Of a DNA stretch of 20,486 nucleotides, positions 361-8,832 are shown piece by piece. Each line of letters opens with the position of its first letter. Within the stretch, counting starts at the first letter, position 1. Position numbers and translations under genes: made by a program. Source of the stretch: a virus. The notes under the pieces are model-generated. The model saw nothing but the letters and a program-made list of their open reading frames with translations, was not told the DNA's origin and ran no database searches. The stretch covers positions 1 to 20,486 of IMG/VR virus record IMGVR_UViG_3300025889_001185; one strand, written 5' to 3'.

Positions 361-508
361 TGCTTTTCTCCTTCATGTTAATTGAACCAGCTCGCTTGAG
401 GTTCTTGTGCTTTCGATTGTTCTCGCACCAGGGACAGCTTCCGTGACTTCGACAAGACTTGTCAAGCGCCTTGGTGCCAGTGTATGGCTTCTTTTTGCTT
501 CTGCTCAT
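356..508 (-). CDS. 50-aa Cys-containing small phage protein
   Basis: This 50-residue protein starts MSRSKKKPYTGTKALDK and has CRSHGSCPWCENNRKHKN in the middle. The Cys and His spacing (C-x3-H-x2-C-x2-C) suggests a small metal-binding knuckle. It is very basic, consistent with nucleic-acid binding. I recall similar short basic proteins as common unnamed phage genes. An AGAGG ribosome site lies upstream of the ATG. The gene overlaps the 3' end of the methyltransferase by 47 bases in another frame, and its stop overlaps the likely start of the helix-turn-helix gene. Its first 20 bases are identical to the first 20 bases of the 58-aa gene at 1845. Function unknown. Confidence 0.7.
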   Translation of the reverse strand: MSRSKKKPYTGTKALDKSCRSHGSCPWCENNRKHKNLKRAGSINMKEKSN

Positions 509-1667
509 TTTTAATCCTCTCGTTTAATGTTATCCATGCCTTTGCAGCAGTCTGAGGCACTACTCCGTTTCCCAAGAGCCTAATGCGGTCCACCCTGTCG
601 GGACACCCATCAACCACTCGACCCAGTCTGGGTTCAGGTGGCCACTTGTTGAGTTCTCCGCTTGATACTCTGCTCGCGCTAGTTGATCTAGTCGCTTGCG
701 CTCTGTACCGTCTGGGTTCTTCGATGTCGTTGCCATCCCTGGCGCGTCTTTGTAATCCCTCGCTGATGGTGTTGGCCAAGTCTGGCGGTAAACCGCCGCC
801 ACATTGAGATTCTGCATACAGTTGTCCCTTTGTAGATGCTCCCTGCCTGTCACGCTGCGGTAATCCCGCGATGCCGGTGTCGGCCAATACCTCGGAACCA
901 GATGCTGCCAATCCCCCGCTGCCACATCCATCAGGTTCTTTGGCCCCTTTGTGTTGGCGTTCTTGTTGGGCGCTTCCATCCCAACAGTTGGGGTCGGAAC
1001 CGAGTACCGCTGCACTACTGCTACCTGCTGACTCAGGCCGTACTGAGCGTTCCTCCATGTCACCTTGTCGTACATCCGCTCGCCCAACCTGGGCGGCTGA
1101 CCGTCCTTCGTTTGCAGGCGGTCTATCGTTATCCCAGGCTCCTGCGCTGATGGAGTTCGCCATAATATAGACGCGCTTTCGCTGGTGAGGCGCACCGACT
1201 TCAGCCGCTGAGAATATTCCCCACGTTGCTTGATAACCTGCTCCTTCCAAGTCGCCAATGACCTCTCTGAGTCCAAGCGATATGTGTCCTTCGACGTTTT
1301 CAAAGAAACACTGAACAGGTCTAATTGATCTGATGTGGTCGAGGATGTAGGGCCAAAGATGTCTGGGGTCTTCTGTTCCCAGTCGCTTTCCTGCCGCTGA
1401 AAACGGCTGGCACGGGTATCCTCCAGTAATGATGTCAACGCAGTCTCGAAAGAGGTGCGCTGGGAAGGTTTTAAGATCCGTGAAGATAGGCGCTGGAACC
1501 AACTCACCCGATTCCATCTTTGAGACCAAGTTCGCAATGGCGAAGGCTTCGATCTCCACATAACACAGGACTCGATGCTTGACCCCAGCAAGGTCAAGTC
1601 CTCTTTCGATGCCAACATATCCCGCGCAAAACGCGATGACAGTGGGTAATTTCTTGGTAATATCCAC
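462..1667 (-). CDS. C5-cytosine DNA methyltransferase (Dcm type)
   Basis: This enzyme would transfer a methyl group from S-adenosylmethionine to carbon 5 of cytosine in DNA. Phages commonly use such enzymes to evade host restriction. Family motifs are in order: FCAGYVG (about 13-19, AdoMet binding), GGYPCQPFSAAGKR with catalytic Cys86, FFENVEGH (122-129), QRKRVYI (162-168), and GNGVVPQ (366-372) near the C-terminus. Length from GTG at 1667 is 401 aa. I chose this start because the 58-aa gene stops one base upstream and GAGGAG lies about 10 bases before it; TTG at 1694 is the other option. Residues about 172-340 are rich in Ser, Gly, Gln and Arg, with repeated 'LADT/LANT' segments. This is where another frame also looks coding. 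Target sequence cannot be predicted. There is no restriction enzyme nearby, so an orphan methylase is likely. Confidence 0.92.
   Translation of the reverse strand: MDITKKLPTVIAFCAGYVGIERGLDLAGVKHRVLCYVEIEAFAIANLVSKMESGELVPAPIFTDLKTFPAHLFRDCVDIITGGYPCQPFSAAGKRLGTEDPRHLWPYILDHIRSIRPVQCFFENVEGHISLGLREVIGDLEGAGYQATWGIFSAAEVGAPHQRKRVYIMANSISAGAWDNDRPPANEGRSAAQVGRADVRQGDMEERSVRPESAGSSSAAVLGSDPNCWDGSAQQERQHKGAKEPDGCGSGGLAASGSEVLADTGIAGLPQRDRQGASTKGQLYAESQCGGGLPPDLANTISEGLQRRARDGNDIEEPRRYRAQATRSTSASRVSSGELNKWPPEPRLGRVVDGCPDRVDRIRLLGNGVVPQTAAKAWITLNERIKNEQKQKEAIHWHQGA
489..509 (-). repeat. 21-base direct repeat, copy A (start of 50-aa gene)
   Basis: This stretch is identical to 1826-1846 and covers the ATG and the first codons of the 50-aa gene (MSRSKK...). 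The two genes share nothing recognisable beyond this point. Confidence 0.8.
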
Positions 1668-1678
1668 ACTAACTCCAC
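560..1678 (-). CDS. Long overlapping frame inside the methyltransferase gene
   Basis: A second frame, +1 relative to the methyltransferase and on the same strand, is open for 372 codons. It does not look random. It has a Trp-Pro motif repeated four times (WRTPSAQEP at 173, VPTPTVGM at 227, WPTPASRDYR at 265, WPTPSARDYKDAPG at 301). It also has SLKTSKDT, RGEYSQRLKSVRLTSES and a C-terminal LNPDWVEWLMGVPTGWTALG (348-367). I recall 'WPTP-x-x-RD' plus 'LNP-x-(F/W)VEWLMG-x-P-x-GW' from phage and bacterial proteins linked to cytosine methylases, but could not search. The protein-like part starts near residue 119. No start codon in this frame has a good ribosome site, so expression could require internal initiation or a ribosomal frameshift from the methylase. 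It may also be an untranslated relic. Stop at 560-562. Confidence 0.4.
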   Translation of the reverse strand: MELVWILPRNYPLSSRFARDMLASKEDLTLLGSSIESCVMWRSKPSPLRTWSQRWNRVSWFQRLSSRILKPSQRTSFETALTSLLEDTRASRFQRQESDWEQKTPDIFGPTSSTTSDQLDLFSVSLKTSKDTYRLDSERSLATWKEQVIKQRGEYSQRLKSVRLTSESASILWRTPSAQEPGITIDRLQTKDGQPPRLGERMYDKVTWRNAQYGLSQQVAVVQRYSVPTPTVGMEAPNKNANTKGPKNLMDVAAGDWQHLVPRYWPTPASRDYRSVTGREHLQRDNCMQNLNVAAVYRQTWPTPSARDYKDAPGMATTSKNPDGTERKRLDQLARAEYQAENSTSGHLNPDWVEWLMGVPTGWTALGSWETE

Positions 1679-1845
1679 TCCTCAAGTATCTCAATCAGCT
1701 TGCCGCTTTTAATTATCGGCATCCCGTTTTCGTTGTTCAGCTTGACCTTAACCCTTGCACCGATCATGCCGCCGCTCATCACAAACTCAGCAATTAAGCG
1801 TTTTATGATTTCAGATTCGATTTCTTTCTTTTTGCTTCTGCTCAT
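1669..1845 (-). CDS. 58-aa hypothetical protein, MSRSKKK start
   Basis: This 58-residue protein lies directly upstream of the methyltransferase. Its ATG overlaps the TAA of the 75-aa gene (TAATG), and its TAG ends one base before the methylase GTG, so all three are probably translated in a coupled way. There is no clear ribosome site of its own. It starts MSRSKKKEIESEIIKRLIAE, a basic then amphipathic helical stretch. A beta-like centre (GARVKVKLNNENG) and an acidic end (KLIEILEEWS) follow. I do not recognise the family. The constant position next to the methylase could mean a shared role, but this is speculation. The N-terminal seven residues match the 50-aa protein at the DNA level. Confidence 0.65.
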   Translation of the reverse strand: MSRSKKKEIESEIIKRLIAEFVMSGGMIGARVKVKLNNENGMPIIKSGKLIEILEEWS

Positions 1846-6616: not shown

Positions 6617-6737
6617 AGACGCTCTAATTAGCATTCTTAAATCGTTTTGGTACGCTGTCGCGACATTAGCGATAGGTGTTGGTTTTTGTATTATAATTAC
6701 AATAGGCATTATTCATGGAATCGTTTACAGAGATTGA
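6609..6737 (+). CDS. Possible 42-aa single-pass membrane protein
   Basis: A short frame starts at TTG 6609 inside the portal gene's end and runs to TGA 6735, inside the protease-capsid start. It fills a gap of almost 100 bases that is otherwise empty. GGAGA lies 8 bases before the TTG. The product begins IKDALISILKSFWYAVATLA and continues IGVGFCIIITIGIIHGIVYR: a positively charged start and about 22 hydrophobic residues in one block, as expected for a transmembrane helix. The start codon would couple its translation to the portal stop. It could be a real micro-protein or merely a chance AT-rich frame; only the ribosome site and the hydrophobic pattern support it. Confidence 0.45.
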   Translation: MIKDALISILKSFWYAVATLAIGVGFCIIITIGIIHGIVYRD

Positions 6738-8832
6738 TATACCGGAATCTCGACCTTATCCAAATGAACATGCGGCAAGGATAACTGATCCGAAGCTGTA
6801 TGATGAGTTCAAGAGAACAAACGATAAGTTTGGGCCAGGAATTGATGCAATTTGGGGGCTTAAAGAAGGTGAAATAAGCCTCCAGGGTATTAGGTTTGAC
6901 AAAAACAAATATACAGTTGATGAAGCAAAGAAATGGCTTAAAGATAATGATTACACACCAATTAAATTTGAGCCAGCTACAGAAGGAAGGACTATGGACC
7001 AAGTAATAGAAACACCAGAAGTCATTGACGAAATTGTCGAAGAAGTTATTGAGGATATTGTGGAACAGCGGAAAGAATTGGAAGTTCTACATCGAGCAAT
7101 GGCTGTTGAGATGTCGCCAATTAATGAAGAAAAACGAACTGTACAAATTGCCATTTCATCTGAAGAGCCTGTAGAACGATCTTTTGGGATGGAAGTGCTA
7201 GAACATTCTGCCGAAGCAATGGACCTATCATTCCTTGCATCTGGCAGAGCGCCTTTTTTGATGGACCACGATCCTGAAAAGCAAATTGGCGTTATTGAAT
7301 CTGTTGAGCTTGATAGCAATTCCCGCAGACTACGGGCAAAAGTGCGCTTTGGAAAAGGCGCATTGGCTAATGAGGCATTTTCAGATGTTGCTGACGGTAT
7401 CAGAGCTAACATTAGCGTTGGATATTCGATAAGCAAATTAGAGCGTGATCCAAAAAAAGCCAACACATATTTGGCCAAAAAATGGCGTCCCGTCGAAGCA
7501 TCACTAGTATCTATTCCCGCTGACGTGACAGTTGGTGTTGGTAGGTCTTGGGAGTCTTCAACCCAAAACATAACTGTAATTTCTAATGGAGAAAAAACTA
7601 TGTCAGAACTAGACATTGCAGCGGTTGAGGCACAAGCCAAACAAGCTGCACAACGTAACGCTGCTCAAATTGTTGAGCTTGGCGCACGACACAACAAATC
7701 TGATCTGGCCCACAAAGCTATTTCAGAAGGCCGTAGCATCGAGGAATTCCGAGGTGAATTGCTTGAAGTAATCGGTTCTAAAAAAGCATTGGAAAGCCAA
7801 GATGCTGGCATGAGCAAGAAAGAGATCAAGCGATTCTCAATCATGCGAGCCGTCAATGCTTTGGCTAATCCTACCGATCGTCGCGCTCAAGAAGCCGCTG
7901 CATTTGAATTTGAATGCTCACGCGCTGCTGCTGAAGCCTATGGTCGAACAGCTCAGGGTATCCTGTTGCCTGCCGAAGTTCTGCGTAACTGGAAGCGCGA
8001 CCTGAACAGCTCTGATGAATCAGCATTGTTCTCTGATGACTTCCGTGGCGGCGACTTCATTGATGTCCTGCGAAACAGCTCATCAGTAATGCAGGCCGGT
8101 GCGCGTATGCTGACTGGTCTTTCTGGTGATGTAAAAATCCCACGCAAGACTGCTGGTGCCGCTGCCGCTTGGATAAGCACTGAAGGTGGAGCTGCTTCAG
8201 AGTCAGAAATGACTGTTGGCTCAGTTTCTCTCCAGCCTCGCACACTGGGTTGTTTTACTGACGTAACACGGCAATTGTTGATCCAAAGTTCATTGGATGT
8301 CGAATCTTTGATTCGTGATGACCTGGCTCAAGCTCTTGCTGTTGCAATCGACAAAGCTGGTCTTGAGGGTACAGGTGCAAGTGGTCAACCAACTGGTATC
8401 CTGAACACTTCCGGTGTTAACACTGTTGCCGCCTTTGCTGCTGCAAATCCGACTTTTGCTGAGGTAGTTGGTCTTGAAACTGCCGTTGCAGAGGACAATG
8501 CACTGCTTGGTAGTCTGTCGTATATCATGCCAGCATCAATGTATGGCGCATTGAAAACCGTGGAGAAAGCCTCTAACACTGCACAATTCGTTGTGGAGCC
8601 AGGCGGCACTATGAACGGCTACCGAGCTATTGTTTCCAACCAGGCAACTGCTGGAAATCTTTATTTCGGAAACTTCAATGATCTTCTCATTGGTATGTTT
8701 GGCGGTTTGGATATCGTAGTTGATCCATACACCAATAGCACCTCTGGCACGATCCGAGTTGTAGCTCTGCAATCTGTAGATGCAGCAGTTCGTCGCGCAG
8801 TCAGCTTTGCATACGGCAATGATGGCGTCTAA
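6715..8832 (+). CDS. Prohead protease-major capsid protein fusion
   Basis: This 705-aa protein joins three parts. Residues 1-90 (RPYPNEHAARITDP..., then AIWGLKEGEISLQGIRFDK and VDEAKKWLKDNDY) form a domain I recall at the front of other phage head proteases. Residues about 125-280 are an HK97-type serine prohead protease, with likely catalytic His185 in FLMDHDPEKQIG, Ser234 in NISVGYSISKLE and Glu261 in RPVEASLVSIPAD. From about 296 comes an HK97-fold capsid protein: a helical delta-like segment, then EAYGRTAQGILLPAEVLRNW, VKIPRKTAGAAAAWISTEGG and EGTGASGQPTGILNT. The protease would cleave the delta segment during maturation. Only weak ribosome signal precedes the ATG. Fusion of the two genes is known in other phages. 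A free capsid copy may also be made from 7600. Confidence 0.9.
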   Translation: MESFTEIDIPESRPYPNEHAARITDPKLYDEFKRTNDKFGPGIDAIWGLKEGEISLQGIRFDKNKYTVDEAKKWLKDNDYTPIKFEPATEGRTMDQVIETPEVIDEIVEEVIEDIVEQRKELEVLHRAMAVEMSPINEEKRTVQIAISSEEPVERSFGMEVLEHSAEAMDLSFLASGRAPFLMDHDPEKQIGVIESVELDSNSRRLRAKVRFGKGALANEAFSDVADGIRANISVGYSISKLERDPKKANTYLAKKWRPVEASLVSIPADVTVGVGRSWESSTQNITVISNGEKTMSELDIAAVEAQAKQAAQRNAAQIVELGARHNKSDLAHKAISEGRSIEEFRGELLEVIGSKKALESQDAGMSKKEIKRFSIMRAVNALANPTDRRAQEAAAFEFECSRAAAEAYGRTAQGILLPAEVLRNWKRDLNSSDESALFSDDFRGGDFIDVLRNSSSVMQAGARMLTGLSGDVKIPRKTAGAAAAWISTEGGAASESEMTVGSVSLQPRTLGCFTDVTRQLLIQSSLDVESLIRDDLAQALAVAIDKAGLEGTGASGQPTGILNTSGVNTVAAFAAANPTFAEVVGLETAVAEDNALLGSLSYIMPASMYGALKTVEKASNTAQFVVEPGGTMNGYRAIVSNQATAGNLYFGNFNDLLIGMFGGLDIVVDPYTNSTSGTIRVVALQSVDAAVRRAVSFAYGNDGV
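7587..7602 (+). promoter_or_regulatory. Internal ribosome binding site for free capsid protein
   Basis: TGGAGA (7587-7592) stands 7 bases before an in-frame ATG (7600, residue 296 of the fusion). This is a better ribosome site than the one for the whole fusion. It lies precisely at the border between the protease and capsid parts. Confidence 0.55.
7600..8832 (+). CDS. Major capsid protein from internal start
   Basis: If translation starts at ATG 7600, the product is a 410-aa HK97-type capsid protein starting MSELDIAAVEAQAKQAAQRN. Its first ~100 residues are helical and charged like the HK97 delta (scaffold) domain, and the rest is the capsid fold. Phages need hundreds of capsid subunits and few proteases. 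A strong internal start gives that ratio, comparable in principle to nested lambda C/Nu3. This is the same reading frame as the fusion entry, listed separately because it would be a distinct product. Confidence 0.55.
   Translation: MSELDIAAVEAQAKQAAQRNAAQIVELGARHNKSDLAHKAISEGRSIEEFRGELLEVIGSKKALESQDAGMSKKEIKRFSIMRAVNALANPTDRRAQEAAAFEFECSRAAAEAYGRTAQGILLPAEVLRNWKRDLNSSDESALFSDDFRGGDFIDVLRNSSSVMQAGARMLTGLSGDVKIPRKTAGAAAAWISTEGGAASESEMTVGSVSLQPRTLGCFTDVTRQLLIQSSLDVESLIRDDLAQALAVAIDKAGLEGTGASGQPTGILNTSGVNTVAAFAAANPTFAEVVGLETAVAEDNALLGSLSYIMPASMYGALKTVEKASNTAQFVVEPGGTMNGYRAIVSNQATAGNLYFGNFNDLLIGMFGGLDIVVDPYTNSTSGTIRVVALQSVDAAVRRAVSFAYGNDGV

Follow-up and report, generated by a model that had tools for sequence, protein, structure and literature searches.

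A phage C5-cytosine DNA methylase probably composed of two chains encoded in two frames of the same DNA

Introduction

The small-subunit gene of the C5-methylase M.EcoHK31I is said, after Lee et al. 1995, to lie inside the large-subunit gene in a different reading frame. In this naturally split enzyme (YGGCCR), motifs I-VIII and X are found on the large subunit and motif IX on the small one, and the predicted target-recognition region (TRD) has been assigned to the large subunit (PMC3404938). In the two-subunit C5-methylase M.AquI (CYCGRG), the catalytic motifs are located on one chain and the distal TRD, motif IX and motif X on the other (PMC3404938). Here, we analyzed a virus record of 20,486 bases (the window), the plus strand of which carries the tailed-phage genes for terminase, portal, major head protein, tape measure and tail fibre. 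The head protein (705 aa, positions 6715-8829) also matches head maturation protease families and is possibly a protease-capsid fusion. On the minus strand lies a locus that we take, with a probability of roughly 0.8, to encode a two-polypeptide C5-cytosine DNA methylase by two genes, alpha and beta, that share one stretch of DNA read in different frames. A small minus-strand open reading frame downstream of it (97-372) appears helix-turn-helix-like by eye and has no PHROG match.

Results

Two overlapping genes with overlapping start codons

The alpha frame (frame 0) is open from stop to stop over positions 462-1694 of the minus strand, the GTG at 1667 being its likely start. In the +1 frame, 373 codons free of stops cover 560-1681; this frame contains several WPTP/VPTP motifs and ends in LNPDWVEWLMGVPTGWTALGSWETE. 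Both frames had been noticed in the initial annotation, which placed the methylase at 560-1667 and counted 372 codons for the open, WPTP-containing second frame. Alpha continues past that end, to 462. The features of the locus are as follows.

462..1667, minus strand: alpha gene, frame 0, 401 aa, GTG start; C5-cytosine methylase chain with motifs I-VIII and X (PF00145, phrog_363, GTG start kept in relatives)
560..1669, minus strand: beta gene, +1 relative to alpha, 369 aa, GTG start; TRD-like region and motif IX-like segment (open frame, phrog_1008, stop-depletion and codon-position tests)
1665..1669, minus strand: overlapping start codons GTGTG, with the beta GTG at 1669-1667 and the alpha GTG at 1667-1665
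1678..1683, minus strand: GAGGAG, putative ribosome-binding site by sequence, located 8 bases upstream of the beta GTG and 10 upstream of the alpha GTG
1140..1646, minus strand: alpha catalytic region, motifs I-VIII, alpha residues 8-176 (AlphaFold, hhalign); the same DNA encodes the beta N-terminal extension
641..1147, minus strand: TRD-like region in the beta frame, beta residues 175-343 (codon-position rates); low-confidence passenger linker in the alpha frame (alpha pLDDT mostly <50)
581..640, minus strand: motif IX-like HLNPDWVEWLMGVPTGWTAL in the beta frame, where beta-frame constraint dominates; the alpha frame reads RLGRVVDGCPDRVDR
543..578, minus strand: motif X (LLGNGVVPQTAA) in the alpha frame (single-frame substitution pattern, alpha pLDDT >90); its last part lies past the beta stop codon (560-562)

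Beta has its conserved start at the GTG of position 1669 and not at 1678, where another GTG lies. The alpha GTG of 89 relatives that are of the same kind as the window is embedded in the sequence NTGTGG, the first three bases of which form the beta start; one further locus (L068) was left out of this set because its NTGTGG falls outside its open reading frames. The variable base is A in 76, G in 10 and T in 3 of these relatives and never C, giving beta ATG, GTG, TTG and no CTG starts, respectively. Apart from the G common to the alpha start, the bases of the beta start are outside the alpha coding sequence. The start site is pinned down by several loci in which one of the two frames has a stop right upstream of it. 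An SD-like 4-mer is present at most 16 bases upstream of the starts in 77 of the 89 relatives. In more distant relatives, beta starts a few bases after alpha or about 50 codons into the catalytic region.

Features of the two predicted proteins

Alpha carries the catalytic motifs I, IV, VI and VIII of the C5-cytosine DNA methylases (PF00145, E 3.7e-28, residues 19-181 of the stop-to-stop reading), and all motifs expected by the initial annotation (PCQPFSAAGKR, ENVEGH, QRKRVYI and GNGVVPQ) were found. The PF00145 match is confined to the N-terminal half. Alpha also matches phrog_363 (E 1.2e-56), and its catalytic region aligns with canonical C5-methylases with an E value of 1.1e-30 (hhalign). 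In the AlphaFold model, pLDDT is mostly >90 for residues 10-170; confidence is restricted to the catalytic half and motif X, and the approximately 170 residues in between are unstructured. The top fold match is M.HaeIII (1dct). At this locus no single chain unites all motifs including the TRD and motif IX.

For beta, the database search proposed in the initial annotation returned relatives, namely phrog_1008 (E 1.1e-22), which is also matched by the betas of related loci, and phage genes annotated as methylases. Beta carries the motif-IX-like LNPDWVEWLMGVPTGWT. A profile comparison with canonical motif IX gave a weak match (E 0.099) at the expected place, and position and pattern suggest that the beta segment LNPxWVEWLMGxPxGWT corresponds to that motif. 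This part of beta would comprise the TRD plus motif IX. The AlphaFold model of beta is poor (pTM 0.30), with better-predicted parts at residues of about 131-222 and 311-360, that is in and before the TRD and at motif IX. Alpha is confident in its catalytic half and motif X and beta is better in the TRD and motif IX, so that the chains complement each other.

Distribution of the arrangement and movement of motif X

We classified 243 loci from IMG/VR (152), cultured phages (12) and bacterial genomes of several phyla (79). In all 243, motif IX is read in the +1 frame with respect to motifs I-VIII, without a single case in the frame or open reading frame of alpha. This count describes this family and not all methylases, as similarity to the window's proteins was the basis on which loci were collected. 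Motif X is part of alpha in most classifiable loci and of the beta open reading frame in 13 (L161, L163, L164, L165, L071, L080, L081, L083, L086, L087, L088, L236 and L240). In these 13, alpha stops before motif IX and in most of them soon after motif VIII. A quick FastTree tree indicated at least 6-8 changes of the motif X frame.

Existing annotations differ among the loci. In an E. coli prophage-like element (L284, 663-1832), RefSeq lists two incomplete methylase pseudogene pieces where alpha is open for 404 codons and beta for 343. On a Sphingomonas plasmid (L286, 692-1801), only beta is annotated, as a hypothetical protein, and the alpha frame is missing from the gene table. The 'methyltransferase' annotated in a Cylindrospermopsis phage (L004, 1183-1920) is the beta frame and not the catalytic one. 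The annotation of Paenibacillus phage Bloom lists a methylase in each of the two frames.

Beta could be translated and yet be an independent protein, for example a regulator or a counter-defence factor. The lack of any Pfam match, the lack of a meaningful Foldseek match to its model and an N-terminal part that resembles nothing known would fit this idea. However, it leaves alpha without a structured TRD and without motif IX. The conserved end of beta lies between alpha's motifs VIII and X, where motif IX resides in one-chain enzymes. Furthermore, motif X has entered the beta open reading frame on at least 6-8 occasions, and in such cases the C-terminal half of alpha is lost. We consider an independent beta unlikely; most likely, the second protein is the other subunit of the same enzyme.

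A frameshift producing a methylase with a different C-terminal half had been offered in the initial annotation as the alternative to a separate second protein. Programmed ribosomal frameshifting would fuse the catalytic half of alpha to the TRD and motif IX of the +1 frame in one chain, and the 13 loci in which alpha stops before motif IX and motifs IX and X are both in the +1 frame have the arrangement that a +1 shift would use. In most loci, however, motif X is back in frame 0 and two shifts would be needed. A shift has no need of a +1 frame that is open through the catalytic half and has its own conserved start, and the contexts of the alpha stops differ among the 13 loci with no obvious slippery site in common. 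Frameshifting is therefore disfavoured and appears improbable to us compared with two separately initiated chains.

Stop codons in the overlapping frames

The initial annotation had held that the open second frame is hard to explain by chance. Indeed, when the synonymous codons of alpha were shuffled 20,000 times, the +1 frame acquired 9.0 stops on average and at least 2 in every shuffle, versus none in the 368 codons of the window. We then counted stops in relatives picked with alpha alone, none of them with beta. As these loci are mutually related, the counts are not independent. The +1 frame contained no stop in the half with motifs I-VIII (154.5 expected) and one in the TRD half (93.2 expected), whereas the +2 frame behaved as expected (507 versus 460 and 279 versus 283, respectively). 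In canonical one-chain C5-methylases from bacterial genomes, no depletion of +1 stops was observed (e.g. 10 versus 9.2, 18 versus 15.5 and 6 versus 7.3 expected), which shows that an open +1 frame is not a general property of methylase genes.

The reciprocal count in beta-picked loci, not conditioned on alpha being a stop-free open reading frame, gave 16 alpha-frame stops in the TRD versus 198.7 expected. In 49 of 51 loci, against 5.4 expected, the alpha frame was free of stops there. Only L081 and L088 deviate; they have motif X in the beta frame and contain close to the expected number of stops. Alpha thus appears to be kept open across the TRD only to reach motif X.

Codon-position constraint

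In ordinary coding DNA, most change occurs at the third codon position. Motif X, the greater part of which is located past the beta stop, exhibits this classic single-frame pattern, with differences of.21,.20 and.59 at the first, second and third positions of alpha codons (pairs 65-80% identical in that segment). Third-position change is reduced in motifs I-VIII (.25/.15/.35), which is what constraint on both frames would produce. The pattern is inverted in motif IX (.31,.11 and.14), and in the TRD, at 80-90% nucleotide identity, the values of.335,.085 and.060 in alpha numbering are those of a beta-frame gene. Hence alpha dominates in motifs I-VIII and X and beta dominates in the TRD and motif IX. 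The comparison of homologous loci that the initial annotation had called for accordingly found both frames constrained, with the beta frame governing the TRD, and silent change in the methylase frame restricted at the motifs of the second frame.

It is hardly credible that the second frame goes untranslated and merely reflects codon bias or conserved DNA signals: +1 overlaps do arise by chance and the window alone is one sequence, but the stop depletion goes far past that in synonymous shuffles, affects the +1 frame only and is absent from ordinary C5-methylases, TRD substitutions are governed by the beta and not the alpha frame, and the beta start codon is conserved outside the alpha coding sequence.

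Discussion

Both frames of the locus are open under selection, constraint is divided between them, the overlapping starts are conserved and the methylase motifs are distributed over the two frames. The proposal that the second frame is a real overprinted protein is thereby borne out: the frame is kept open in relatives, has relatives itself and restricts synonymous change. Stops throughout the frame, a lack of homologues and free synonymous disruption of its motifs had been named as observations that would speak against it, and none of the three was encountered.

We infer that both chains are translated and associate into one enzyme. A single ribosome-binding site would bring ribosomes to both starts. 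Initiation at the first start codon, usually ATG in relatives and GTG here, would give beta, and initiation at the GTG two bases downstream would give alpha. Alpha would provide motifs I-VIII as the AdoMet-binding and catalytic half and, beyond the passenger linker, motif X, and beta, after an N-terminal extension read from the DNA of alpha's catalytic half, would provide the target-recognition region and motif IX. Together, alpha and beta may form a single enzyme that acts on a specific cytosine and, by methylating it, probably shields phage DNA from host restriction.

Some findings are at odds with the two-chain reading. It gives no explanation for roughly 130-170 N-terminal residues of beta across alpha's catalytic half. 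In addition, the beta model is poor, the motif IX match is weak and the predicted TRD of M.EcoHK31I was assigned to the large subunit.

It is likely that the locus represents a widespread phage and prophage family of two-chain methylases with near-full-length overlap, co-initiation from one ribosome-binding site, swapped functional and passenger halves and a motif X that switched frames repeatedly. If this holds true, it would rank among the top cases of dual coding in tailed phages for both length and conservation, and with both frames serving one enzyme it would offer a clear model for the origin and upkeep of overlapping genes. The two-frame design would also explain the annotation errors at the E. 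coli, Sphingomonas plasmid and Cylindrospermopsis phage loci, and it points to the small chain as the place to look for the specificity region of such methylases. Paper searches, with most subscription journals outside their scope, yielded no published account of a two-frame phage methylase arrangement. New here are the co-start with full-length overlap, the TRD in beta, the wide distribution and the repeated frame moves of motif X.

How does the locus compare with known systems? M.HaeIII and other one-chain C5-methylases resemble the catalytic half of alpha, but in them a single frame holds everything and +1 stops occur as expected. Window alpha matches phrog_363 and window beta phrog_1008. 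Each of these families bears the name DNA methyltransferase, in a library with no indication that they derive from one DNA read in two frames. M.AquI resembles the 13 relatives whose motif X is read in the beta frame; the window differs, as its motif X is in alpha and thus not on the second chain. From M.EcoHK31I the locus differs in that beta overlaps nearly the whole of alpha from a start 2 bases ahead of it, and in that the TRD evolves as beta-coding sequence, whereas the TRD predicted there was assigned to the large chain (PMC3404938). Like M.EcoHK31I, the locus has an alpha with motifs I-VIII and X and without IX, and a probable motif IX (weak profile match, E 0.099) on a second frame within the first gene. 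Judged by this motif arrangement, as published for M.EcoHK31I, the locus is best explained as an enzyme whose closest known kind would be M.EcoHK31I.
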